Of a stretch of 64,000 nucleotides of DNA, positions 16,128 to 37,663 are shown piece by piece; position 1 is the first letter of the stretch, and every line of letters starts with the position of its first letter. This DNA is from Spirochaetales bacterium (GTDB lineage: Bacteria > Spirochaetota > Spirochaetia > SZUA-6 > DRHE01). The translations under genes and the position numbers were made by a program. The notes beneath the pieces were generated by a model, which saw only the letters and a program-made list of their open reading frames with translations, was not told the DNA's origin and made no database searches. Where the stretch lies: the NCBI GenBank assembly GCA_030615505.1, contig JAUWZD010000001.1:40150-104149 (forward strand), given 5' to 3'.

Positions 16128-18458
16128 TTAGACAGTGTTAATAGCTTTATGTATTACCTTGCTGAGCTCTTCAATTTCATAGGGTTTGGTAATAACATCC
16201 TTAAAACCATATTTCTTATAATCAGCCATTATAGGATCATTGGAATAACCGCTTGAAACAATTGTTATAATTTCAGGGTCTATTTTAAGCAATTCATTGA
16301 TTGTCTCCTTGCCGCCCATTCCTCCTGGAATGGTTAAATCCAGGATTACGACATCAAAGGGATTATTGGATTCCTTTGACTTTTTGTACAATTCTATGGC
16401 GTCGTTTCCATCTCTGACAACAGTTGCTTCATATCCAACTCTCTTAAGCATATCTGTTACAACCCTTCCTACTATCTCTTCATCCTCCATTACCAGAACT
16501 CTTCCCTGACCTGAAATGGGTTTCGCTTTCTTATCGTTTTTTATCAGGGCTTTTTTCCGTATAGATGGAAGATAAATATGAACGATAGTTCCCTTTCTCA
16601 CTTCAGAGTCAACTGCAATATATCCATCATGCTGTTTAATTATGGAGTAAGATGTAGCAAGCCCAAGGCCGCTTCCCTTCTGCTTTGTTGTAAAATATGG
16701 ATCAAATATCTTGGCAAGGTGGTTTTCGGGGATTCCAATTCCCTGATCTTTTATGGTGATTTTAACATATTTCCCATCTTTTAAGGGCAGATTGTCTTCT
16801 TTTTTAACGATAGTATTTTTTGCAGTTACCTGGCTATTTCCACCCTCAGGCATAGCATGCTTGGCATTAATGATTATATTGTGAATTACCTGACTTATCT
16901 GCCCTTCATCCACTTCAACAGGCCAGAGATTATCCGGTAAGAAAAAATCACACCTGACATTAGAACCACTGAGGGCAAAATTAACGGTATTCTTTATTAA
17001 TTCAACAATATAGGTTGTTTTTTTAATTGGCTCTCCACCTTTAGCAAAGGTAAGCAATTTATACGTAAGATCTTTTGCTCGCAGGGAGGCTTTCGCTGCC
17101 ATGGTTAGATTTTTAAATACTTCATCTCCAGGGGATACTACGAGCTTAGCAAGAGAGATATTACCCATAATAGCAGTTAGCAGATTATTAAAATCATGAG
17201 CTATACCACCTGCAAGAGTGCCAATTGATTCAAGTTTCCTAACTTTTAGAAGCTCCTGTTCCAGATGCTTCTGTTCAGTAACGTCTTTCGACATTAACAC
17301 AAATCCAATTAAATTATCTTCAGTATCCCATATACCGGATACTACAGATTCAATAAAGCGAGTTCCCTGTTTCTTTTTTTGTTCAAAAGAATATTTATAT
17401 TCATTTCGTTTTCTAACTCTTTCTATAGCCCTTTCAAAATGAACGGGATCTATTATCTTTATATCATAAAGGGTTCGACCAATGATATCTTCTGCTCTGT
17501 GTCTAAAAATCTTTTGAGCCATTGGATTATAATATCGAATATGAAAATCGAGATCTGTAGCAATAATGGCCATATCTATGGAGGACCGCAAGATATTGTC
17601 CAGGTATACTTTTTTCTCGCTTAGATTCTTTAGAGTCTCCTCCAGCATCCCCTCTTTTTCTCTTATAATTTGCTTTAAAGTTCCTATGTATGCGCTCTCC
17701 AATCCCTTGATGATATCGTACTGGGTAACCAGACCTGCGATTTTGCCTTCTTTATCAACAACGACCAATCTACGTATTTTTTCCTTATTCATAATCATTG
17801 CAGCATCATGAACAGGTGCGTCAGAGGATATAGTTCTTATCGGATGGCTCATTACTTCTTCGATTTTAATAGCCCCTGTATCGATTCCCCGATGCAATAA
17901 TCCGGTTACATCACGCTCGGTTAATACCCCGACAGGAGACTGATTTTCTTCAACGATTATACAACTGATCGAACGATCGACCATAGTTGAGATGGCTTTA
18001 TGAACCAAACACCCCTTTTTAACGGTTAGTACTATTTTTGTCATTATTTTGGCTATGTTCTTGATCTCTACAAAATATTCTAAACCGAGATTGTTAAGGA
18101 TATCAGTAAGAGTAACCACACCAATAAGCTCATCATTTGAATTTACTATTACAAGGTGCCGTATTCTGTTAACTGCCAGTAGATTGTATGCTTTATAGAT
18201 ATTGATATCGCTCTGTGCAGTAATAACCGGTTTGCTCATTAATTCCTTTATTTCACGTTTCTCCAAGTTGGCTGCCTGATTAATGGTCCGAACAATATCT
18301 CTCTCCGTAAATATTCCCAGCGGCTTTTTATCTCGGACCACCAAAAGGCAACTGATTATTTTTCTCTTCATGATTGAGACTGCTTCTGAAATGGGAATCT
18401 CAGGTGATACCGTAATGACTTTTGAGGTTAATATCTCCTGGATTGAGTTTTTGGTCAT
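16128..18458 (-). CDS. CBS(x4)-PAS-hybrid sensor histidine kinase with C-terminal receiver domain
   Basis: Four CBS-like repeats, PAS, GIAHDFNNLLTAIMGN H-box, GSGLGLATSYSI G2 box, receiver (RVLVMEDEE...VVILDLTIPGGMGG). Confidence 0.88.
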   Translation of the reverse strand: MTKNSIQEILTSKVITVSPEIPISEAVSIMKRKIISCLLVVRDKKPLGIFTERDIVRTINQAANLEKREIKELMSKPVITAQSDINIYKAYNLLAVNRIRHLVIVNSNDELIGVVTLTDILNNLGLEYFVEIKNIAKIMTKIVLTVKKGCLVHKAISTMVDRSISCIIVEENQSPVGVLTERDVTGLLHRGIDTGAIKIEEVMSHPIRTISSDAPVHDAAMIMNKEKIRRLVVVDKEGKIAGLVTQYDIIKGLESAYIGTLKQIIREKEGMLEETLKNLSEKKVYLDNILRSSIDMAIIATDLDFHIRYYNPMAQKIFRHRAEDIIGRTLYDIKIIDPVHFERAIERVRKRNEYKYSFEQKKKQGTRFIESVVSGIWDTEDNLIGFVLMSKDVTEQKHLEQELLKVRKLESIGTLAGGIAHDFNNLLTAIMGNISLAKLVVSPGDEVFKNLTMAAKASLRAKDLTYKLLTFAKGGEPIKKTTYIVELIKNTVNFALSGSNVRCDFFLPDNLWPVEVDEGQISQVIHNIIINAKHAMPEGGNSQVTAKNTIVKKEDNLPLKDGKYVKITIKDQGIGIPENHLAKIFDPYFTTKQKGSGLGLATSYSIIKQHDGYIAVDSEVRKGTIVHIYLPSIRKKALIKNDKKAKPISGQGRVLVMEDEEIVGRVVTDMLKRVGYEATVVRDGNDAIELYKKSKESNNPFDVVILDLTIPGGMGGKETINELLKIDPEIITIVSSGYSNDPIMADYKKYGFKDVITKPYEIEELSKVIHKAINTV

Positions 18459-21402: not shown

Positions 21403-23499
21403 TTAAATATCCTGGAACTGCATCTGGTAGAGATTAAAGTACATTCCTCTTTTCCTAATTAACTCCTCATGGCTGCCCGACTCCAGGAGTTCTCCCCTGT
21501 GCAGTACAATAATGCGGTCTGCATTCCTGATTGTGGAGAGCCTGTGAGCAATTACTAGGGATGTTCTTGCCTTAAGTAAATTTTTCAAAGCCTCCTGAAT
21601 AAGCTTTTCAGTTTCCGTATCAATATTACCTGTAGCTTCATCCAGTATAAGGATATCCGGATTGTGGGCCAGCACCCGTGCAAAAGAGATAAGTTGTCTC
21701 TGTCCCATGGATAGATTCGTTGCTCTTTCGTTGAGCTCTGTTTCAAGACCCTGGGGCAGCTTATTGATAAAGGTATCCGCCTTTACAAGCTTTATGGCCC
21801 GCTCGATTTCTTCGGGCGAAATACTGCATTCCAAACGGATATTGGACTCTATGGACCCGGAAAAAAGAAATACATCCTGTAAAACGGATTGTACTTTCCT
21901 GCGAAGCGAAGATGTAGGGATATCTCTTATATTGATGCCGTCTATTAAAATGGCACCTTCCTGAATATCCCACATCCTTGTCAGCAGGGAAGCGATAGTG
22001 GTTTTTCCGGCTCCAGTATATCCGACAATGGCTATAGTTTCACCCGGTTCCACACTGAATGAGAGATTTTTCAGTACAGTTTCCCCATCCTTATACTGAA
22101 ACGATACGTTATCAAAGACAATATTGCCTTTAGTTCTGTCAAGAAAAATCGGGGATGAAGGCTGACTGATTATGGATTTTTCATCCAGAAGTTCAAAAAC
22201 CCTCTCTGCCCCGGCCATGGCGGATTGAAGAATGTTGTACTTTTCAGATAAGTCCCTTACAGGTTCATAAAATTTTCGGATCAGATTGATAAAAGCGATC
22301 AGTATTCCTAGAGAAATCATATCCCTTACGAGAAAATTCGCTCCGAAATAGATAATTACAGCTATAGATACGCTTGAAAGCAGATCAATAAAAGGCCTGA
22401 AGGAGGCAAATACGTACATCTCACCCAGATTTGCCTTAAGCAGGCGCCTGTTTCGTTTATTGAACTCCTCTCTGCTCTGTTTCTCCTGAGCGAAGAGCTG
22501 CACGATGCGCATGCCTGAAATATGTTCTGAAAGAAAGGAGTTGATCTGTGATACAGCCTGTCTCACCCTGCGGAAGGCATCTCTTGCTTTAACCCTGAAA
22601 ATTAAAGCTAATACAATCACGGGCGGAAGAGATAAAAGCGTGATACAAGCAAGATGCGGGCTTAAGATGAATAGGACGGCCAAAACCCCCACCATGAGAC
22701 TGGCATCACGGAGAAGAGATGAGATCACCGTTGTAAAGAGCTCATTTATAGTTTCCACATCGTTGGTGATCCTTGTAACCAGGCGGCCGACAGGGTTTGC
22801 ATCTATAAATTTCAATGACAGTCCCAGGGTATGATCAAAGACATGAGTCCGCATATCCTTCATGAGCATCTGGCCCACATAGGCTAAGAGATATACCTGG
22901 CTGAAGGTAAAAATAAGCACTCCGATAAGAATGAACAGAAATTGAAGGCCTATAAATGACAGGCCGCGGTAGTGATCACCACGGATAATTCTCAGGGACT
23001 CCCTGTCAAATGAGCTTAAATCTTTTTCTTCTATGACTGCATTAAGCTGATTGGCTTTAAAAAAATCGGGATACCGGTTTAAAATGCTTTTAATCCGGGG
23101 TTTTCTGTTATAGTCCTTTACCACAATATAATTTTCGCTGGAAAGTATCCCCTTATCTTTCAGGTAATTTTTTTCGAGCACGCTCAGATCGGACAGCCTG
23201 GAAGTCGGAAAATAATAAATCCCATCAATTACAAAATCAGTCTGTACAGTATCCAGCTTGTTCAGGATTTCTCCGGGAGCGGAGTCAACCCGGATTGCAC
23301 GGTGATAGGGAAGTATGTGGTTATCGATGCTTCTCTGGATGAGAATGGGTATATATAACTCACCTGCAGTTGCAAGCAGAAGCGCGCCAATCGATAAGAG
23401 GAAAACAGCCAGATATGGCTTTAAATAGGCCAGAAGCCTCTTCATGAGGGCTGAATCGTAGCTTTTAAGGACCTCTTCCTGTCCGGTAGTGTCGGTCAT
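21403..23499 (-). CDS. ABC exporter (fused TMD-NBD), canonical catalytic Walker B
   Basis: GYTGAGKTTI Walker A, LSMGQRQL signature, ILILDEATGNID Walker B; TM1-TM2 insertion. Confidence 0.92.
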   Translation of the reverse strand: MTDTTGQEEVLKSYDSALMKRLLAYLKPYLAVFLLSIGALLLATAGELYIPILIQRSIDNHILPYHRAIRVDSAPGEILNKLDTVQTDFVIDGIYYFPTSRLSDLSVLEKNYLKDKGILSSENYIVVKDYNRKPRIKSILNRYPDFFKANQLNAVIEEKDLSSFDRESLRIIRGDHYRGLSFIGLQFLFILIGVLIFTFSQVYLLAYVGQMLMKDMRTHVFDHTLGLSLKFIDANPVGRLVTRITNDVETINELFTTVISSLLRDASLMVGVLAVLFILSPHLACITLLSLPPVIVLALIFRVKARDAFRRVRQAVSQINSFLSEHISGMRIVQLFAQEKQSREEFNKRNRRLLKANLGEMYVFASFRPFIDLLSSVSIAVIIYFGANFLVRDMISLGILIAFINLIRKFYEPVRDLSEKYNILQSAMAGAERVFELLDEKSIISQPSSPIFLDRTKGNIVFDNVSFQYKDGETVLKNLSFSVEPGETIAIVGYTGAGKTTIASLLTRMWDIQEGAILIDGINIRDIPTSSLRRKVQSVLQDVFLFSGSIESNIRLECSISPEEIERAIKLVKADTFINKLPQGLETELNERATNLSMGQRQLISFARVLAHNPDILILDEATGNIDTETEKLIQEALKNLLKARTSLVIAHRLSTIRNADRIIVLHRGELLESGSHEELIRKRGMYFNLYQMQFQDI

Positions 23500-25244
23500 T
23501 TTTTTCGCCTTATTGTTTCCTCGAGCTGCTGCAGCTTATAGATATCTGCATAGAAGCCTCTTACGGTAATCAGTTCATCGTGTCTGCCCTGCTGAATGAT
23601 TCTGCCTTTGTCCAAAACAATAATGTGGTCTGCCGCTTTCAGTGTGGAGATTCGATGGGAGATGAGGATCAGTGTTTTTCCACTAATAAATGGGAAGAGC
23701 TCCCGCAGTATGAAATCCTCAGTTTCCGTATCTACTGAAGATAATGAATCATCGAAAATGTAGATGGAAGCGTCCGAAGCTAAGGCCCTGGACATGGCAA
23801 CCCGCTGCTTCTGACCCCCGGAGAGCGTAACCCCCCGTTCTCCCACTATGGTATCCCAGCCGTCGGGAAAGGTATTGAAATCCCTGTCTATTGTGGATAT
23901 GCAGGCTACCTTTTTTAACAGATCCCCATTTCCGTTTTTACTGCCAAAGGCAATATTCTCCCGGATGGATGCGGAAAACAGAAAGCCGTCCTGCGGAACC
24001 ATGCCGATGGCTGAACGGAGTGTGCCCAGTTCATAGCTCTTTATATCTCTGTCGTCGATAAATAAAGTTCCGTCAGGCGGATCAAGTATCCTGGGCAGGA
24101 GTTGAACCAGTGAGCTTTTTCCGGAAGCGATTTTTCCCAGGATTCCTAAAATGCTTCCCCTGGGGATATCCAGCGAGATATCGGAAAGGACAGGCTCCTG
24201 ACTTTCAGGATAGGAAAAAGTAAGATTCCGGATGTTTATATTTCCATCTATCCTGTGCGTAATTGCGGCCGGAGGGCTGCTGATGTCCGGTACCTCATTC
24301 AGAATTTTATTAATACGTCCCAGGGATGCACCGGCTCGTTGAATCATATTTATGGTAAAACCGGCGCCCATCATAGGCCAGATCAGCATATGCAAATAAG
24401 ATAGAAAAGCTGTAAATTCTCCCGGAGAGAGGCTGCCCTCCATTACAGCCCTGCCGCCCAGAAGCAGAAAGATCAGGGTTGTAATACCTGCTAAAAAAGC
24501 AACCAGGGGAAAGAAGAGCCCCCAGATACGCACCAGGGCCATATTTCGCTCAGTGTAATCCTGATTTGTACGGGCAAAGCGCTTCACAAATGCTTTCTCC
24601 CGTACAAAGGTTTTCAATACGCGGATCCCGGAAATGGATTCCTGGGCCATTTCACTGAGGTTAGAGAATCCTTCCTGTATACGGCGGAAGCGTTCTCCGA
24701 TGATCCGGCCGAAGAAGATGACGCCGATGGTTATTATGGGCAGGGGGCTGATGGAGTAGAGTGTGAGCAGTGGATTCTGGCTGAATAGAATGACAAGGAT
24801 AGCTATAGTCATAAAGAAACCGTCTATAAATGCAACTAAAGCCATTGCAGAAGCCATGCGTATGGCTCTCATGTCATTGGTAAAACGCGCCATCAGATCG
24901 CCTGTTTTTGCTTTTCTGTAAAAAGTAGATGAGAGGGATTGAAGGTGGACGAAGAGTTTCTCTCTTAACTGCTGCTCGATGCGCCGGGAGGAACCGTGAA
25001 TGAAATACCGCCAGCTAAAGCGGCTGACAGCAATGATGAACGCGATCCCCACCATCTGGGCGGACAGAATCATGACATTGGAAAGCAAAAAGCTGCCCGA
25101 TGCGATCATATCTATGGCTCTTCTGATAAGCTGGGGAATGTAGAGCTGGCCTCCGTCCGTTAAGACCAGGAAAAAAAGACCGATTAAATAGCTGAGTGAA
25201 TATTTCTTAAAGTAGGGTAGAAGGGTCTTAAACTCTTTAAGCAT
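23496..25244 (-). CDS. ABC exporter (fused TMD-NBD), degenerate Walker B
   Basis: GKIASGKSSL Walker A, LSGGQKQR signature, IYIFDDSLSSVD Walker B; 4-bp overlap with partner. Confidence 0.92.
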   Translation of the reverse strand: MLKEFKTLLPYFKKYSLSYLIGLFFLVLTDGGQLYIPQLIRRAIDMIASGSFLLSNVMILSAQMVGIAFIIAVSRFSWRYFIHGSSRRIEQQLREKLFVHLQSLSSTFYRKAKTGDLMARFTNDMRAIRMASAMALVAFIDGFFMTIAILVILFSQNPLLTLYSISPLPIITIGVIFFGRIIGERFRRIQEGFSNLSEMAQESISGIRVLKTFVREKAFVKRFARTNQDYTERNMALVRIWGLFFPLVAFLAGITTLIFLLLGGRAVMEGSLSPGEFTAFLSYLHMLIWPMMGAGFTINMIQRAGASLGRINKILNEVPDISSPPAAITHRIDGNINIRNLTFSYPESQEPVLSDISLDIPRGSILGILGKIASGKSSLVQLLPRILDPPDGTLFIDDRDIKSYELGTLRSAIGMVPQDGFLFSASIRENIAFGSKNGNGDLLKKVACISTIDRDFNTFPDGWDTIVGERGVTLSGGQKQRVAMSRALASDASIYIFDDSLSSVDTETEDFILRELFPFISGKTLILISHRISTLKAADHIIVLDKGRIIQQGRHDELITVRGFYADIYKLQQLEETIRRKK

Positions 25245-25343
25245 TGCTATAAGTTATAAAAAATAACTGATTTGTTCAAATAATGCGAGTAGCTGTCAAA
25301 AATATGTTATCGTATCAATCAGCTATTTAGGTGTGGGATGTTC

Positions 25344-25757
25344 TTACCAAACTATTTTATTTTCGTTTAAAGTAAGTTCCTCTATTTGCCAATCAGAACC
25401 ATCTTCAGCCATTTTGAAATTTATAGTCTGATCCGGAAACGTTACCAGATTATTGCTTACAATTCTTGCATTAACAGTATCTCCGGAAATGTCCACATCA
25501 TAAATATCATAGGGTATTTCATTATTATCGGTTGGGAAATAAGCTTCCAAGTATGCAGGATCCTTAATATCATTATATTTTTCAGTTTTACTAGGATGGA
25601 AATTTTTATATAAGTTATTCCTGTCGTTATTAAGGTCGCTTTCAAAATTATCGATTCGTTCATCTTTGCTCGTCCCAGACAACTTGCAACTTTCAAAGGC
25701 AAATATTATTATGATCGAAATAACAATAATCAAAACAACTGTTTTAATTTTTATCAT
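25344..25757 (-). CDS. Putative lipoprotein of unknown function
   Basis: Signal peptide with possible lipobox (FAFESCKLSG). Confidence 0.5.
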   Translation of the reverse strand: MIKIKTVVLIIVISIIIIFAFESCKLSGTSKDERIDNFESDLNNDRNNLYKNFHPSKTEKYNDIKDPAYLEAYFPTDNNEIPYDIYDVDISGDTVNARIVSNNLVTFPDQTINFKMAEDGSDWQIEELTLNENKIVW

Positions 25758-25770
25758 AAGATCCTCCAGT

Positions 25771-26787
25771 TTATATATCGGCTTCTACCAATCTCGGAAC
25801 GATGGATTTTTCGAAGCTTAATAGTAGTTTATTATAGCTATCAAGGAAATCACGATATTTGATGTCGTTTAAATTGATTATATATTTGGTTTTAATGATC
25901 AAATATAGACGTCCTGCTACATACCGCCTCAAGGAAAGTGCCGCTAGAGTATAATATCGATAGTTAAGAACAAGATTTCCTGTATCAATGGTAAGAGGAA
26001 AAAGAACCTCGTTATAGAATTTTTTACTCGCATCTTCTCCCTGTTTTTTGGCAATTTCTATACTTTTTTTCCTTTCTTTAGACAATTCTTCACTGTATTC
26101 AAGGAATAGAGAATAATACTCTCCAATATTGCTAATATAAAAATCCAGTCTTTTCTTTAGTCTATCAACAGCTATTATCGGATCATCTAGCATGCTGCCA
26201 AGCTTTTCATCATTCCAGGTGCTGTAGTCAATTCTACCAGCCGGAACCTTAAACTTCTTCCCCGGAGGCTCCCCGGGATTAACCTCAACCCCTTCCTCCG
26301 CACTCAACTCCACTGTTTCCCCTTCGGATTCAACAGAAACCAGACCTGAATCCACAACAATTAAAGAGGAGCCGTCCACACCGGCGTACACGGAAAACTC
26401 AGTACCCCTTACGCCGGCTATACAGCTCCCGGTGGCGATTTTGGGCTCTTTTCCGGTGATTTTATCATAGCGGAATTTTATGGAGCCAAGAACCAGGGTA
26501 ATTACATCAGTCTTCTCCTTATTCTCCTCCCGTTCCAGCAGTGTAAATACCGTATCCGGGTTTATCTTCAATACGACTCCGTTCCGATCCAACTCCACAA
26601 AGCCGTCAACACCTGTTGTTACGGTATCACCGGTATCCACTATGTCGCCGATATCCGCCTCGAATTCATCACCGGTTTTATCCTTGATGTACGTTTCCCC
26701 CTCCGTATACACAACATCGCTGGGAACAGAGAAAACAGGCGAAAGAGCCAGGATAAACAGACTGCCTAAAATGATTAATCGCTTCAT
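25771..26787 (-). CDS. FecR-domain protein
   Basis: Signal peptide; DIVDTGDTVTTGVDGFVEL and RGTEFSVYAGVDGSSLIVVDSGLVSV are typical of FecR domains. Confidence 0.8.
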   Translation of the reverse strand: MKRLIILGSLFILALSPVFSVPSDVVYTEGETYIKDKTGDEFEADIGDIVDTGDTVTTGVDGFVELDRNGVVLKINPDTVFTLLEREENKEKTDVITLVLGSIKFRYDKITGKEPKIATGSCIAGVRGTEFSVYAGVDGSSLIVVDSGLVSVESEGETVELSAEEGVEVNPGEPPGKKFKVPAGRIDYSTWNDEKLGSMLDDPIIAVDRLKKRLDFYISNIGEYYSLFLEYSEELSKERKKSIEIAKKQGEDASKKFYNEVLFPLTIDTGNLVLNYRYYTLAALSLRRYVAGRLYLIIKTKYIINLNDIKYRDFLDSYNKLLLSFEKSIVPRLVEADI

Positions 26788-26788
26788 A

Positions 26789-27235
26789 TTAATAGGGTCC
26801 TTTAAAGCCATATATTTTTCTCAACCAGAGCTTTTCTTTTATCAAAAGCAAGATTCTCCGGCCTGTGCTGGTTTTAAGCTCAAGCATACGGGTTCCCTCT
26901 GGAAGATATTTCTTAAAAAAAGTCTTCACTTCCATCGAAGTATAAAACTCTTTATAACTTTCTTCATCGATAAATATTCCTCTTTCCAATTCCGGTTCGT
27001 TCACCTTGAACCCGGCATTCAGGATATCTTTCCAGAAACTGTTTATATCTTTTTCTAAAACAATAATTTCCTGGTCCAGGAGGAAGGGCATTTCACTCAT
27101 TATTATGAGTTCTTCATGATCACCGGAGTTGATAAGGCGTGATATACGCCTGATGTTGCGTTCGTCCTTTGTCTGGATTGATGCGCAGGAGGCCAGGATA
27201 AATGCTGCGGCCAGTAACATAATGGTTTTTTTCAT
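26789..27235 (-). CDS. Putative lipoprotein of unknown function
   Basis: MKKTIMLLAAAFILASCASI lipobox; precedes the FecR-domain gene. Confidence 0.55.
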   Translation of the reverse strand: MKKTIMLLAAAFILASCASIQTKDERNIRRISRLINSGDHEELIIMSEMPFLLDQEIIVLEKDINSFWKDILNAGFKVNEPELERGIFIDEESYKEFYTSMEVKTFFKKYLPEGTRMLELKTSTGRRILLLIKEKLWLRKIYGFKGPY

Positions 27236-27287: not shown

Positions 27288-28271
27288 TTACCATCTATAA
27301 TGCACATCGTCTTTAATATATTTCTCATATATTTTGCTTACTTTATGCATCTGATCCTCTGAGAGCGGTGAAAGGTCTGAAGCTCTTACATTATCCTCTG
27401 CCTGAGAGGGCCTTTTGGAGCCTGGAATAGCGCACGATACCTCATCAAACATTAGTATCCAGCGCAGGGCGAATTGAGCAAGTGTCATTCCCTCAGGTAT
27501 GATGGTTTTTAATTTGTCCACTGCCGCCAGTCCTTTATAATAATCCGCTCCGGCAAAGGTTTCGCCCTTATCGAAGGCCTGTCCCTCCCGGTTGTAGTTG
27601 CGATGATCGTCTTTTTTGAACTGCGTATTTTCCGTCATCTTGCCCGTCAGTAAGCCGCTGGCCAGGGGAACTCGAACGATGATGCCAATGCCGCGGTGTT
27701 TTGCCTCCCGGAAGAAGAGCTCTGATGGGCGATGGCGAAACATGTTAAAGATAATCTGAACAGTTTTCACTCCGGGGTATTCGATAGCTTTCAATGCTTC
27801 TTCAACCTTTTCAACACTGACGCCATAATTCTTAATTTTGCCGGCCTTGACCTGGTTATCTAGAGCCTCAAAAAGTTCAGGACGGTAGTAGACTTCTGTG
27901 GGAGGGCAGTGAAGCTGTAAGAGGTCAAGTGCTTCCATCTCCAGGTTTTTCAGACTGTCTTCGATAAAACCGGTTATGTTTGCCGGGGTATACTTTTCTG
28001 CCACATGGGGGGATAAACGCCGACCCGCTTTTGTAGCTACAAAGATCGTTTCGGAGCGCTCCTTCCTTAATCTGGCAATCAACTTTTCACTGCGGCCCAT
28101 GCCGTATGCATCGGCTGTATCGATGAAATTGACTCCCAAATCTACTGCTTTATGCAGAGCGGCCATGGATTCACTATCATCTACTGTCCCCCAGTCAGCT
28201 CCGATGGCCCAGGCACCGAAACCGATCTCCGAAACCTCTATGCCGGTTTGACCAAGCTCGCGGTATTTCAC
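27288..28271 (-). CDS. Aldo/keto reductase
   Basis: MKYRELGQTGIEVSEIGFGAWAIG, NFIDTADAYGMGRSEKLI, AIPGSKRPSQAEDN. Confidence 0.92.
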   Translation of the reverse strand: MKYRELGQTGIEVSEIGFGAWAIGADWGTVDDSESMAALHKAVDLGVNFIDTADAYGMGRSEKLIARLRKERSETIFVATKAGRRLSPHVAEKYTPANITGFIEDSLKNLEMEALDLLQLHCPPTEVYYRPELFEALDNQVKAGKIKNYGVSVEKVEEALKAIEYPGVKTVQIIFNMFRHRPSELFFREAKHRGIGIIVRVPLASGLLTGKMTENTQFKKDDHRNYNREGQAFDKGETFAGADYYKGLAAVDKLKTIIPEGMTLAQFALRWILMFDEVSCAIPGSKRPSQAEDNVRASDLSPLSEDQMHKVSKIYEKYIKDDVHYRW

Positions 28272-28370: not shown

Positions 28371-29219
28371 CTATGCCTTTACGGAACCGGCAAGGAGTCC
28401 TCTTATGAAGAACTTTCCAAGCAGTATATAGAGAAGCAGGGTAGGAAGCGCAGCAATTAAGGCGCCGGCCATCTGAACATTCCATTCCACAATCTGGCTG
28501 CCCGCGAGGTTCTGGAGGGCAACCGTAATCGGCTGCAGGCTGGGTTTCTGTGTAATTGTAACGGCAAAGAGAAATTCGTTCCATATATTCGTAAACTGCC
28601 AGATAATAACAACGACAAATCCGGGAGCCGAGATTGGCAGCATAATTCTAAGATAAGATTGAAATATACCGCTTCCATCCATGAAGCCGGCCTCCAGAAT
28701 TTCATCCGGCACTTCGGTGTAATAATTCCTGAAGATAAGCGTGGTTATAGGAATTCCGTAAATTATATGAACAAGAATTAATCCTGCGAGTTTTCCATAT
28801 AATTTTATAAAGCTTAAGAACTGTACGAGGGGAATAAGGATACTCTGGTAGGGAATAAACATGCCGAAAAGTATAATCGGGAAAATAATATTCGCTCCTT
28901 TGAACTTCCATTTAGACAGAACATAGCCGTTAAGAGAACCAATAATGGCTGAGAACAGAGTCGCCGGAATGGCAATGAGCAGGCTGTTTTTAAGATTTGG
29001 AATAAGCTTAATAAAGGCTTTCACAAAGGAAGACAATGTAATTTTATCCGGAAGAGACCACATATGCGCTATATTCACGTCCTTAAAGCTCTTTAGCCCG
29101 GTTGCCAGAAGTACATATATCGGAATAAGGAAAGAAGCGGCGCATAACAATAAAATTGTATAGAGAATTCCTCTTGAGATTGCTCGATTTAGTCTGTAAG
29201 TCCCTGTGTTTACGTACAT
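28371..29219 (-). CDS. Carbohydrate ABC transporter permease (MalG type)
   Basis: EAA loop (EAGFMDGSGIFQSYLRIMLPISAPG). Confidence 0.9.
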   Translation of the reverse strand: MYVNTGTYRLNRAISRGILYTILLLCAASFLIPIYVLLATGLKSFKDVNIAHMWSLPDKITLSSFVKAFIKLIPNLKNSLLIAIPATLFSAIIGSLNGYVLSKWKFKGANIIFPIILFGMFIPYQSILIPLVQFLSFIKLYGKLAGLILVHIIYGIPITTLIFRNYYTEVPDEILEAGFMDGSGIFQSYLRIMLPISAPGFVVVIIWQFTNIWNEFLFAVTITQKPSLQPITVALQNLAGSQIVEWNVQMAGALIAALPTLLLYILLGKFFIRGLLAGSVKA

Positions 29220-30118
29220 TAAGATTGCTTTTCCTTCCTCAGGCTTGTATAAAGGTAGGGAATAATCACTAAGGCGACCATAAAGAACATGACTATGGAC
29301 ATGGCTGCGCCTTCAGCATAACGGTTTGCCCTGAAGGTCGTTTCAAACATATTGATACCGGGTACATCCGTTGCAAAAGCAGGCCCCCTGCCGGTCATCG
29401 TATATACCAAATCGAATATCTTAAGAGAAATATGTCCCAGCACGATCAGTGCGCTCAGGGTTATGGGCTTAAGCATGGGGAGTATCACCCGGGTGTAGGT
29501 CTGGAATTCAGTTGCTCCGTCAATGCGCGCCGCCTCCCTCACTTCTACCGGAATCCCCCTTAAGCCCGCCAGGTAAAGGGCCATGGTATATCCGGAAAGC
29601 TGCCAGGAAGCTGCGATCACTATCGGTATGAGGGCCACATGAAAGTTCAGATATTTTGCCGGATCAGTGAACCATCCCCAGGCCAGATGCTCAAGGCCGA
29701 TCGCTCTTAATATAGCATTCACACCAACAGATGGGCTGAAAATCCATTTCCATACAATCCCAGTAACAACAAATGATATGGCCATGGGAAAGAGAAATAT
29801 GTTGCGGAAAACACCCTCGCACTTTACCTTTCTATCCAGTAGTATGGAAAGCAGCAGTCCTATAAGAACACACAATCCAAGAAATAAAATTGTAAAGAAG
29901 AGGGTGTTCCACAGATCCGTTTGAAATCTGTAACTACTGAATATTTCAATGTAATTCCTTAAGCCCACAAAGGAAAAATCAGGAATTATTCCTTCCCAGG
30001 CAGAAAGAGATGTTCTGATCGACCAGGCAATAAATCCATAGACGAAGATTAATACTGCACAGAGGGAAGGAAGAATAATAAGAAATGCGATAAGATAATC
30101 CCTTCTTGAATGATACAT
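29219..30118 (-). CDS. Carbohydrate ABC transporter permease (MalF type)
   Basis: EAA loop (REAARIDGATEFQTYTRVILPMLKP). Confidence 0.9.
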   Translation of the reverse strand: MYHSRRDYLIAFLIILPSLCAVLIFVYGFIAWSIRTSLSAWEGIIPDFSFVGLRNYIEIFSSYRFQTDLWNTLFFTILFLGLCVLIGLLLSILLDRKVKCEGVFRNIFLFPMAISFVVTGIVWKWIFSPSVGVNAILRAIGLEHLAWGWFTDPAKYLNFHVALIPIVIAASWQLSGYTMALYLAGLRGIPVEVREAARIDGATEFQTYTRVILPMLKPITLSALIVLGHISLKIFDLVYTMTGRGPAFATDVPGINMFETTFRANRYAEGAAMSIVMFFMVALVIIPYLYTSLRKEKQS

Positions 30119-30140: not shown

Positions 30141-30168
30141 ACGGCTGCCCCCTTGCGCAGGCAGCCGT
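30141..30168 (-). terminator. Stem-loop followed by a U-rich tract between SBP and permease genes
   Basis: ACGGCTGCC...GGCAGCCGT 9-bp perfect stem; on the minus strand followed by TTAATTTTTATTA. Confidence 0.75.
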
Positions 30169-30188: not shown

Positions 30189-31451
30189 TTATTTGAGATT
30201 CTTAGCCGCAGCCTTTAAAAACGCTTTAACGGCCTGGTCTACATTCTTTTCTACAATAAGAATCGTGATTATATTATTATAATCTTCCATCCAGCCTTCG
30301 GATGCCGCTGCACCATGCATGACACTGGGCACAATGGTGTTTGAGGTCCAATCGTCCATTGCTGATTTCAGATAGGCGTCATAGAGGCTCTTGTTTCCAT
30401 CGGTCCGGCTCGGAATTGAACCTTTTTTAGGATTAAAGGCATCCTGACCCTCTTTTGATCCGCAAACCGTAAGCCATTTAATTGCATTTTCCCTGTTAGG
30501 CGCGCCCCTGGGCAGGCCGAAGGAATCCGAAAGCATAAGGAAAGAACCGGCAGTTCCGGGAGACGGGGCCCAGCCGAATTCTTTACCCGGGGTCAATCCC
30601 TTTGATTTAAAGTATCCTTCAGCCCAATCACCCATGATATACATTGCTGCCTTGCCGTCGATTACGTACTGAGCCGCTGCCTCCCAGGCTAAGGCTGAAA
30701 AGTCCGAGTTCACATAGTCTAAAATATTTATAAACGCCTCCACAGCAGCTATTACGCCGGGGTCATCCCAGGCAGTGCCGCCGTTCCACAGGCCTTTGTA
30801 CTTACCGGGGCCCAGGGCTCCAAGCAGCACTGATTCGAACAGATGAGAATTTGTCCAAGCTTCTGCCAGGGCAAGGGGTATTATCCCTTTGCCTGAAAGC
30901 TTTTCCGCTGCTGCAAAGAATGATTCAAGGCTGTCAGGAGGTGTTATTCCCGCATCGGCAAAAATCTGCTTGTTGTACCATAATACGTTTGATCTGTGGA
31001 TGTTCACAGGCACACTGTATATTTCGCCCTTATAAGAGATAATATCGATTACATCCTTGGGATATGCATTAAGGAAATTATTTTCCTTAAAGATAAACGT
31101 AATGGGCTCCATTTTTCCTGCAACCACCCAGGTATCGATTAATTCATGTCCCGCATGAACCTGGAAAGAATCGGGTGGATCGCCGCCCTGCATCCTGGTT
31201 TTAAGAACGGCCTTGGCATTCACCCCTGCGCCGCCGGCTACCGTGGCATTGATAAACTCGACATCCGGATATTTGGCTTCAAAGATTTCTCTCATGGCCT
31301 CCAGGCCTTCCGCCTCACCTCCGGCCGTCCACCAGGAAAAGATTTCCAGCTCGTTTTTTACTTCTTCCTTCTTGCCTCCTGCAAACAGTATTGCCGGTGT
31401 AAGCAGCAGAACTGTTAAAACGAGAAGGATGCTTGTTTTGATGGATTTCAT
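30189..31451 (-). CDS. Carbohydrate ABC transporter substrate-binding protein
   Basis: MKSIKTSILLVLTVLLLTPAILFAGGKKEEVKNELEIFSWWTAGGEAEGL; AAGGAGG RBS upstream of M27 of the listed ORF. Confidence 0.9.
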   Translation of the reverse strand: MKSIKTSILLVLTVLLLTPAILFAGGKKEEVKNELEIFSWWTAGGEAEGLEAMREIFEAKYPDVEFINATVAGGAGVNAKAVLKTRMQGGDPPDSFQVHAGHELIDTWVVAGKMEPITFIFKENNFLNAYPKDVIDIISYKGEIYSVPVNIHRSNVLWYNKQIFADAGITPPDSLESFFAAAEKLSGKGIIPLALAEAWTNSHLFESVLLGALGPGKYKGLWNGGTAWDDPGVIAAVEAFINILDYVNSDFSALAWEAAAQYVIDGKAAMYIMGDWAEGYFKSKGLTPGKEFGWAPSPGTAGSFLMLSDSFGLPRGAPNRENAIKWLTVCGSKEGQDAFNPKKGSIPSRTDGNKSLYDAYLKSAMDDWTSNTIVPSVMHGAAASEGWMEDYNNIITILIVEKNVDQAVKAFLKAAAKNLK

Positions 31452-31513: not shown

Positions 31514-31528
31514 GCAAGTATTGTGCCA
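31514..31528 (-). promoter_or_regulatory. Sigma-54 (-24/-12) promoter upstream of sugar ABC operon
   Basis: Minus strand reads TTGGCACAATACTTGCCT: TGGCAC-N5-TTGC, matching the RpoN consensus, about 63 nt upstream of the SBP start codon. Confidence 0.85.
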
Positions 31529-31619
31529 AGCCAATGCGAAAAATTTTCTTTGCTAAATTCTTTTATGCCAATTAAATAGAGGGTGTAAAGCTTAAAGGCT
31601 GTTTTTAGACATCCACAAT

Positions 31620-31637
31620 TGTTTAGGCTGGTAAACA
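31620..31637. promoter_or_regulatory. Enhancer/UAS-like palindrome, copy 1
   Basis: TGTTTA-GGCTGG-TAAACA, perfect inverted repeat with 6-nt spacer. Confidence 0.75.
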
Positions 31638-31641
31638 GTTG

Positions 31642-31659
31642 TGTTTACCTATCTAAACA
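31642..31659. promoter_or_regulatory. Enhancer/UAS-like palindrome, copy 2
   Basis: TGTTTA-CCTATC-TAAACA, same inverted repeat, centre-to-centre 22 bp from copy 1. Confidence 0.75.
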
Positions 31660-33024
31660 CTAAAGATTATATTTCCGGATCTTTTCATACAGGGTCTTGC
31701 GCGTAATATCAAGCTCCCGGGCCGTTTTAGTAAGATTCCCGTTATTAGCCGAAAGGGCACGCGAGATAAGTTCACTTTCAACCTGGTTCAAACATCTTGA
31801 AGTAATCTTTTTCAAGCCATCTCTGAAATCAAGATTAAAGCGTACCCTGTTTTCCCTGGATTGAGCATCGAAGAGATCGATTTTCTCTATAGTATCACCC
31901 TGGTTCAGTATTACGGCATTTGTTATTGCATTCTTAAGCTGCCTGATATTTCCCGGCCATTGGTACTTTTTTAATATTTCCAGAATCTCTGGAGAGGCAG
32001 AGGTTACGTTTCTATTATATTCCCTGTTTGCCTGGTCTATGAATAACTGAATAAGCGGTTCAATATCACATTTCCTCTCACGCAGAGGAGGAAGCTGAAT
32101 GACAATCAGGCTCAGCCTGTAGTACAGGTCCTCTCTGAACTCTGCCCTGTCAATAAGCGCTTTGAGCTCCTTGTTCGAAGCTGCAATAATCCTGCAGTTT
32201 GTTCGAATACTTTTAGTGCCTCCAACCCGCTCGAATCGTCTCTCCTGCAGCACTCTTAAGAGCTTGGCCTGCATGGCCAGGCTCATGTCCCCCACCTCAT
32301 CGAGAAACAGGGTGCCGTCTCCGGCAAGCTCAAAGCGCCCGAGCTTTCTGGAAACAGCCCCTGTGAAAGAGCCCCTCTCATGCCCGAACAACTCGCTTTC
32401 CAGCAGGTTATCATTAAGGGCAGCGCAATTTACATCGATAAACGGTCTGTTCCTGTAAATACCTGAGTAATGGATTGATTTTGCTGTTAATTCTTTGCCC
32501 GTACCGCTTTCACCGAGGATTAGAACCGTAGCTTGAGAATCCTTTATTCTATTGATGATGAAGTCGATCTCATTCATCGTCGAATGGCTGCTCTTTAAGA
32601 AGGTAATTCTTGACCTGCCTTCCAGGGATTCTTTAAGACTGATATTTTCCTTTTTGATCCTGGATGATTCTATTTCTTTCCGGATAATAGAGAGAAGGAG
32701 TTCTTTATCTACCGGCTTGGTAATATAATTTATTGCTCCTTCCTTCATACACTCAACAGCGTTCTTTATGTTTCCGAATCCTGTAATTACAATGACAGGA
32801 ATCAGGGGTTCATCTGATTTTAAGTCTTTTAAGAATTGAAATCCGTCTTCCTTGCCAAGCTTAAGATCGAGGAGGACCAGATCAATATCATTTTCCTTGA
32901 TTATTTCTCTTGCTTTCAAGCATCCGGGAGCTTCAAAGACCTGGTAATCCTGTAAAGTTAGAATTTTATTTAAGCCCCTTCTCAAGCCGGGTTCATCATC
33001 AACAATAAGAATGTTCAGCTTCAT
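31660..33024 (-). CDS. NtrC-family sigma-54-dependent response regulator
   Basis: Receiver domain, GESGTGKE, GAFTGA, Fis-type HTH C-terminus. Confidence 0.95.
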   Translation of the reverse strand: MKLNILIVDDEPGLRRGLNKILTLQDYQVFEAPGCLKAREIIKENDIDLVLLDLKLGKEDGFQFLKDLKSDEPLIPVIVITGFGNIKNAVECMKEGAINYITKPVDKELLLSIIRKEIESSRIKKENISLKESLEGRSRITFLKSSHSTMNEIDFIINRIKDSQATVLILGESGTGKELTAKSIHYSGIYRNRPFIDVNCAALNDNLLESELFGHERGSFTGAVSRKLGRFELAGDGTLFLDEVGDMSLAMQAKLLRVLQERRFERVGGTKSIRTNCRIIAASNKELKALIDRAEFREDLYYRLSLIVIQLPPLRERKCDIEPLIQLFIDQANREYNRNVTSASPEILEILKKYQWPGNIRQLKNAITNAVILNQGDTIEKIDLFDAQSRENRVRFNLDFRDGLKKITSRCLNQVESELISRALSANNGNLTKTARELDITRKTLYEKIRKYNL

Positions 33025-36574: not shown

Positions 36575-37663
36575 TCACGGAGCCAGTTCTGAAATCTCTT
36601 TCAAGCGCGCAATGATGGGCAGATGCTGTGTGCAGGCTTCTTCACACTCTCCGCATTCGCTGCATTTGCTCGCTTCCCCGGGAGAAATATTCCAGTGCCA
36701 CTTGAGCCGGTCCAGGAGAGCCTCATTTTTACCGTACAGCTTCTTGTGATTGTAGGCATCCATGAGCTTGGGAATGGGAATCTTTTCAGGACAATTATCG
36801 CAGTACTGGCATCCTGTGCAGAGGTCTTTAAACGTATCGGGAAGTGTATTTTTTATTCTTTCAACTTCTTTATTATCATATCCTGAATAGGACTCTACAG
36901 CTTTAATCGCCTCATGGACCTCTTTCAATTCTCCAAAGCCGACTATAGCAGTATTTATCCGCTCATGGGAAAATAGAAAGTGAAGAGCCGCTTCCACTAC
37001 AGACTCTTTTTTATTAAGCTTAAGGAAGCTGAATATGTCAGGATTCTCAGGTATGATTCCTCCACCCAGGGGGTTCATTACCGCACAGCCTAAGTCCTTC
37101 TCAGCAATAATTTCAAATGCTTTCTGCCTGAATGCAAAATTATAGGCCGAATATCCAAACAGCACACCTTCAAGGATCTCTTCTTTAAGGAGCTCCTTGA
37201 TCTGATCGCCGATAAGATGGCTGGAAACGCAGATATGCTGAATCAGTCCTTGCTCTTTAAGTTTTTTAAATGCTTCGATGACCCCTTTCTCTTTGCGCAT
37301 CCGCCATTCTTCCAGTTTGTCAATACACCAGATATGATAGAAATCTATAGAATCCAGATTCAACCTTTTGAGCTGGCCCTCTATTTCTCTTCGAATCACT
37401 GCCTCTGAGGCCTCAAAGGTCTTTGTGGCACAGTAAAAGGGAAATCCCAGGCGCCTTAATTCTAAAAATCCCTCTCCGAAGATCTCTTCGCTCTGTGTGC
37501 CAAAGTATTTGGGAGCCGTATCAAAATAATTAACTCCCGCTTTAGCGGCTTCAACCATCATTTCCACACACAGGTCCCTGTTCTTAATCTCCTTGAATCT
37601 CATGCCTCCGAAACCCAGGATCGACGGCTTTTTACCGGTTTTCCCATACATTCTATAGATCAA
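36575..37663 (-). CDS. Aldo/keto reductase with C-terminal ferredoxin-like cysteine clusters
   Basis: AKR N-terminus; CTGCQYCDNCPEKIPIP and CSECGECEEACTQHLPI. Confidence 0.9.
   Translation of the reverse strand: MIYRMYGKTGKKPSILGFGGMRFKEIKNRDLCVEMMVEAAKAGVNYFDTAPKYFGTQSEEIFGEGFLELRRLGFPFYCATKTFEASEAVIRREIEGQLKRLNLDSIDFYHIWCIDKLEEWRMRKEKGVIEAFKKLKEQGLIQHICVSSHLIGDQIKELLKEEILEGVLFGYSAYNFAFRQKAFEIIAEKDLGCAVMNPLGGGIIPENPDIFSFLKLNKKESVVEAALHFLFSHERINTAIVGFGELKEVHEAIKAVESYSGYDNKEVERIKNTLPDTFKDLCTGCQYCDNCPEKIPIPKLMDAYNHKKLYGKNEALLDRLKWHWNISPGEASKCSECGECEEACTQHLPIIARLKEISELAP

Follow-up and report, generated by a model that had tools for sequence, protein, structure and literature searches.

The window analysed here, a 64-kb stretch of DNA from a Spirochaetales bacterium, carries on its minus strand a gene cassette that we read, with a probability of roughly 0.9, as a two-component, sigma-54-dependent switch that acts locally on an ABC importer of the glucose type. 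This reading draws on gene content, sites, spacing, conservation, co-occurrence and covariation, all of which were taken from the sequence itself. In the mechanism that we infer, a periplasmic sugar signal would cause the sensor kinase to phosphorylate the adjacent NtrC-type regulator, dimers of which would bind two palindromes and nucleate an AAA+ oligomer. The oligomer would then loop to RNA polymerase-sigma-54 at a -24/-12 element, approximately 115–137 bp downstream of the palindromes, and open the promoter of the SBP-permease-permease genes. Such a switch would join two themes that are usually found apart, namely two-component control of glucose-type ABC importers and sigma-54 promoters that open only when a signal arrives.

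A sigma-54 promoter element and two tandem palindromes precede the SBP gene

An earlier, sequence-only reading of this region had claimed a consensus RpoN promoter upstream of the SBP gene, two perfect copies of TGTTTA-N6-TAAACA some 92–131 bp upstream of that promoter with centres 22 bp apart, and the location of these copies immediately past the stop codon at which a gene for an NtrC-type regulator ends. We could confirm all three. Read along the minus strand, the 3' end of the regulator gene is followed by TGTTTAGATAGGTAAACA, TGTTTACCAGCCTAAACA, TGGCACAATACTTGC, a GGAGG that resembles a Shine-Dalgarno sequence and the start codon (ATG) of the SBP gene, and the distal palindrome abuts the regulator stop codon (31660-31662). 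When the window was searched for TGGCAC-N5-TTGC at zero mismatches, TGGCACAATACTTGC was the single match, and it also contains the GG-N10-GC core without mismatch.

Table 1. Features of the cassette and its control region (positions within the window).
Feature	Position	Strand	Basis
Sigma-54 -24/-12 promoter element TGGCACAATACTTGC	31514-31528	minus	consensus match, TGGCAC-N5-TTGC at 31528-31514
Distal palindrome TGTTTAGATAGGTAAACA, proposed regulator binding site 1	31642-31659	minus	sequence pattern, conservation
Proximal palindrome TGTTTACCAGCCTAAACA, proposed regulator binding site 2	31620-31637	minus	sequence pattern, conservation
Sensor histidine kinase, 700 aa	33025..35127	minus	domain search, structure prediction
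NtrC-type response regulator, 454 aa	31660..33024	minus	domain search
SBP, 420 aa	30189..31451	minus	closest solved relative Thermus glucose-binding protein 2b3b
Terminator-like hairpin between SBP and first permease	30141..30168	minus	pattern only
ABC permease 1 (BPD_transp_1)	29219..30118	minus	domain search
ABC permease 2 (BPD_transp_1)	28371..29219	minus	domain search

A genome scan for further copies of the palindrome, which had been suggested as a check, returned no perfect copy besides these two, either in the window or anywhere else in the 4,436,925-base (4.44-Mb) genome. Single palindromes with one mismatch occur 25 times genome-wide versus 24 for the control, and since they are thus as frequent as the control, a single site means little. 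It is the tandem pair that carries the significance. Of the 395 genomes sampled from the class, two contain a strict double pattern (gap 3–7), the window genome and G005, at orthologous positions in both, and the reversed control pattern gave no match in the same 395 genomes. When at most three mismatches were allowed, the double pattern hit only the window locus in the source genome (control, 0). We therefore rejected a genome-wide regulon for the palindrome, because one-mismatch sites stay at control level and no second tandem pair was found; judged from these scans, the regulon appears to be local and limited to the SBP-permease-permease promoter.

Gene content of the cassette

The kinase has two TM helices around a predicted double-Cache periplasmic domain, followed by PAS, HisKA (with a HEINNPL box) and HATPase domains. 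In the regulator, the REC (PF00072), AAA+ sigma-54 interaction (PF00158, Sigma54_activat) and Fis-type HTH (PF02954) domains all score above cut-off, and its closest full-length solved relatives belong to the NtrC family. Its sigma-54 contact loop reads GSFTGA, a conservative change from the GAFTGA found in 13 of the 13 other orthologues, but one that weighs against the proposed switch. Sigma-54 is encoded by one gene in the genome (PF04552 at G000:C59, E 3.3e-55).

We set the start of the SBP at the ATG at 31451 instead of the TTG at 31529 of the mechanical ORF. The hairpin that follows the SBP gene consists of 10 pairs, 7 of them G-C, and has a T-rich tail; judging by its sequence, it might possibly raise SBP over permease expression. 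The domain search found no ATPase gene in the cluster. Five OB_MalK-type candidates matched elsewhere in the source genome, and the importer presumably draws its ATPase from this MalK-type set.

The control layout is conserved among spirochaete genomes

Orthologous kinase-regulator pairs, with approximately 50–57% identity between the regulators (paralogues of the regulator reach up to about 48% and lie in other gene contexts), were present in 14 of the 395 genomes of the class sample. When the search was widened to 198 genomes spread evenly over the phylum, a set that overlaps with that of the class, no orthologue turned up beyond the class, and a plasmid search with the regulator returned generic relatives only, the best of them about 42% identical. 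In ten genomes (the window genome, G034, G005, G007, G020, G032, G057, G064, G041 and G154) the order is kinase-regulator-[sites]-SBP-permease-permease, which we call architecture A; the kinase open frame of G005, which lies close to the end of its contig, is not complete. Five of these genomes correspond to the named records L039, L042, L051, L054 and L057, labelled Spirochaetes, Spirochaetales, Spirochaetia or Spirochaetaceae.

A tandem palindrome pair together with GG-N10-GC lies before the transporter genes in all 14 orthologous regions, the promoter of G041 being weak (3 mismatches to the strict form). From the centre of the proximal palindrome to the -12 element the distance is 74.5–155.5 bp. 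The claim of enhancer geometry thus holds in part: upstream tandem sites are kept in every orthologue, but the strict spacing of two helical turns had to be rejected, because the centre-to-centre offset, 22 bp in the window, ranges from 19 to 23 across the regions and follows no single helical phase. In a shuffle test based on the consensus, the observed pair was reached in 0 of 2000 shuffles in each of the 14 regions. Because this consensus derives from the same loci, the test was redone without it, and the pair was then reached in 0–11 of 1000 shuffles per region. On this comparison of sequences, promoter and palindromes are a conserved device and go beyond a pattern match. The record of G154 (L147) has, in addition, a GC-rich repeat tract of GGGGCTCGTACCGTCCGC-like units, which comes after the stop codon of the regulator and ahead of the palindromes.

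The remaining four genomes, G083, G107, G136 and G085 (records L141, L142, L143 and L144), show a different arrangement, architecture B. Here, the regulator gene overlaps the start of an added SBP gene of the window SBP's family (46–50%), the Thermus-GBP-like product of which carries a membrane segment at its N-terminus and lacks a cysteine lipobox. A second SBP (31–36%), which differs from the first and is closest to 4r2b and GltB, is encoded downstream and is followed by two permeases where the contig extends far enough; the contig of G107 ends within the second SBP, and in G083 the downstream set also includes a ROK-family protein. The tandem palindromes and the promoter lie directly before the second SBP, away from the end of the regulator gene, from which they are also separated in G136 by a further gene on the opposite strand. 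Because pair and promoter stay before the second SBP, the sites belong to the transporter promoter.

This position also bears on whether the palindromes are RNA hairpins, a terminator or attenuator ending the kinase-regulator transcript, as one might suppose from most architecture A loci, in which they overlap the stop codon of the regulator gene or come after it. We rejected this explanation as extremely improbable, given that the architecture B sites lie beyond an extra gene and directly upstream of the transporter promoter, and that the palindromes are absent from the output of the terminator scan; moreover, their arms in the window are mostly A+T-rich and no T-run follows.

The palindromes follow the regulator

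Among 80 named loci with related SBPs, the five that carry the regulator all have a tandem pair (0–2 mismatches) and a promoter-like element. None of the 75 SBP relatives without the regulator has a pair, their best candidates showing at least 5 mismatches, and a weak promoter-like match was seen in two of these 75. The sequence of the sites varies with the regulator as well: four loci (window, G005, G007 and G020) combine the HTH motif ITRKTLY with mostly TGTTTA-type arms, G007 having one half-site of the other arm type, and ten combine (I/V)SRKTLY with arms mostly ending in C, such as TGTTAC or TGTTTC. The palindrome sequence thus tracks one HTH residue of the regulator. In the tree, the HTH and palindrome types amount to one change, and since the four ITRKTLY loci may form one clade (support 58/79), the covariation may represent one evolutionary event and not four.

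These patterns matter for the question of which protein uses the sites. Many factors use palindromes of such size, and the genome is rich in other regulators, with approximately 40 NtrC-like matches among them, so that an unlinked factor of LacI, CRP/FNR or ROK type could repress or co-activate the importer through the palindromes while the neighbouring regulator acts elsewhere. We consider this very unlikely: the sites are tied to the presence of the regulator (5/5 versus 0/75), their arms follow its HTH, perfect copies are lacking elsewhere in the genome, and their positions are those of sigma-54 enhancers. The sequence-only reading, which had predicted that a sigma-54 promoter and tandem enhancer sites control the importer, is accordingly supported by the presence of rpoN, by conservation in 14 of 14 regions and by the co-occurrence and covariation of the sites with the regulator, and it is very probably right because 13 further spirochaete genomes share this control layout. 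With the regulator and its proposed 6-N6-6 site both defined, and with variants from 14 genomes to compare, the system would be a resource for tests of specificity and spacing.

Cargo and signal input

The SBP matched the Thermus glucose-binding protein (2b3b) with an E-value of 1.3e-133 and Pseudomonas GltB (5dvf) with 7.6e-55. We took the glucose-contact residues of GltB from PMC7927077 and read the SBP alignment by eye. Nine contacts are kept in the SBP (W40, W41, E46, Q97, W256, W276, D309, K343 and H379), and in place of GltB K92 and N301 the SBP has H99 and L307, in agreement with 2b3b. Because of these matches and the kept contact residues, the cargo is likely glucose or a similar monosaccharide. 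With an SBP of the Thermus GBP/GltB family and two BPD_transp_1 permeases, the transporter shows features of CUT1-type sugar ABC importers of the glucose-binding subgroup.

For the kinase sensor, a model built from 12 sequences (pLDDT 81.9) matched double-Cache domains, including those of LuxQ and DctB, equally well, with query TM-scores mostly between 0.35 and 0.5. LuxQ works through the SBP LuxP, whereas DctB binds succinate itself. The sensor is thus predicted to be a LuxQ/DctB-like double Cache, a fold that does not decide between the two sensing modes. Since glucose-loaded GltB activates the kinase GtrS in P. aeruginosa (PMC7927077), sensing mediated by the SBP is a reasonable first hypothesis, and at just under even odds we tentatively prefer the sugar-loaded SBP as the trigger of the kinase over direct binding of the sugar to the Cache domain. 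It is possible, but somewhat less likely, that the switch operates as described while the double Cache senses the sugar directly, in the manner of DctB, and the SBP has no role. The predicted fold indeed matches DctB and many direct-binding Cache domains. Indirect signs speak against this alternative: LuxQ matched equally well, polar residues of the sensor are hardly conserved among the orthologues, unlike those of the SBP, and four genomes keep a second, anchored SBP, the gene of which overlaps the regulator gene.

By analogy with CuaD, the sensor of CuaSR (PMC10384115), this anchored SBP may well serve as a sensor itself. Returning to SBP-mediated sensing, we tentatively extend it, at somewhat short of even odds, to a three-component sigma-54 switch in which a glucose-type SBP, either free or present as a membrane-anchored duplicate, provides the sensor input of the kinase. 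If so, the transporter's own receptor would drive its sigma-54 promoter, and the duplicate SBP of architecture B would be a pure sensor controlling a different glucose-type importer. The four genomes with an anchored SBP would then offer a natural experiment on a transporter receptor turning into a sensor.

Comparison with known systems

GltR of P. aeruginosa is an OmpR-type regulator. Like the switch proposed for the window, the GltB-GtrS-GltR system is a two-component system that activates a glucose ABC importer operon with an SBP of the same family (PMC7927077). GltR, however, protects two adjacent sites at the promoter itself, from -44 to +15 (PMC7927077), whereas the NtrC-type regulator described here would act on a sigma-54 promoter from sites that lie 74.5–155.5 bp upstream of it, and the window operon lacks an ATPase and a porin of its own. 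Because regulator class and promoter layout differ, with the sites in the window distant from the promoter instead of overlapping or adjoining it, the system is not a member of GltB-GtrS-GltR and shares only an analogous logic. The suggestion of a distinct carbohydrate-sensing system is supported only in part: two-component control of this SBP family is known from Pseudomonas (PMC7927077), and it is the promoter type and site layout that set the system in the window apart.

The gene logic of architecture B is also that of CuaD-CuaS-CuaR from Ruminiclostridium cellulolyticum, in which an extra SBP encoded next to the kinase-regulator pair does the sensing on behalf of another importer; its sugar is cellobiose, and sigma-54 goes unmentioned in the abstract (PMC10384115). 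Firmicutes sugar PTS under sigma-54, for example with MptR, likewise link sugar uptake to this sigma factor, although through PTS transporters with LevR-like activators and not through an ABC importer (PMC8262876, PMC12316311). The part of a cross-phylum sigma-54 survey considered here gives PTS genes for carbohydrate transport under sigma-54 and no sugar ABC importer (PMC12316311). Nothing direct on sigma-54 control of a sugar ABC importer, be it in spirochaetes or in other organisms, turned up in the open-access literature, an absence that is weak evidence.

Judged by its sequence features, the window system would work like an NtrC-class sigma-54 promoter, with a logic like that of GltB-GtrS-GltR and an NtrC/sigma-54 output. 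Systems of the DctB-DctD type combine a periplasmic Cache kinase, an NtrC-type regulator, tandem upstream sites and a -24/-12 promoter driving a transporter; the system in the window shares this predicted layout, but DctBD governs a C4-dicarboxylate carrier and not a sugar ABC importer. Involvement of sigma-54/CbrB has reportedly been described for a xylose ABC operon of Pseudomonas. SBP relatives in Firmicutes and Halanaerobiales (L095, L102 and L098) adjoin REC-AraC response regulators and not the NtrC type, and control by differing two-component regulators therefore seems recurrent. These AraC-type neighbours in other phyla suggest that the type of regulator has been exchanged more than once.

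Neighbouring genes

Aldo/keto reductase genes flank the cassette (27288-28271 and 36575-37663, minus strand), one product having a C-terminal 4Fe-4S domain; no homologue of either was matched in the orthologous loci examined. Further along the minus strand, at 21403-27235, two adjoining genes encode half-transporters of the ABC exporter kind, and upstream of them are the genes of two unassigned small proteins and of one FecR-domain protein. The gene at 16128-18458 (minus strand) encodes a 776-aa hybrid kinase in which four CBS stretches, PAS, HisKA/HATPase and a C-terminal REC domain form an uncommon combination.
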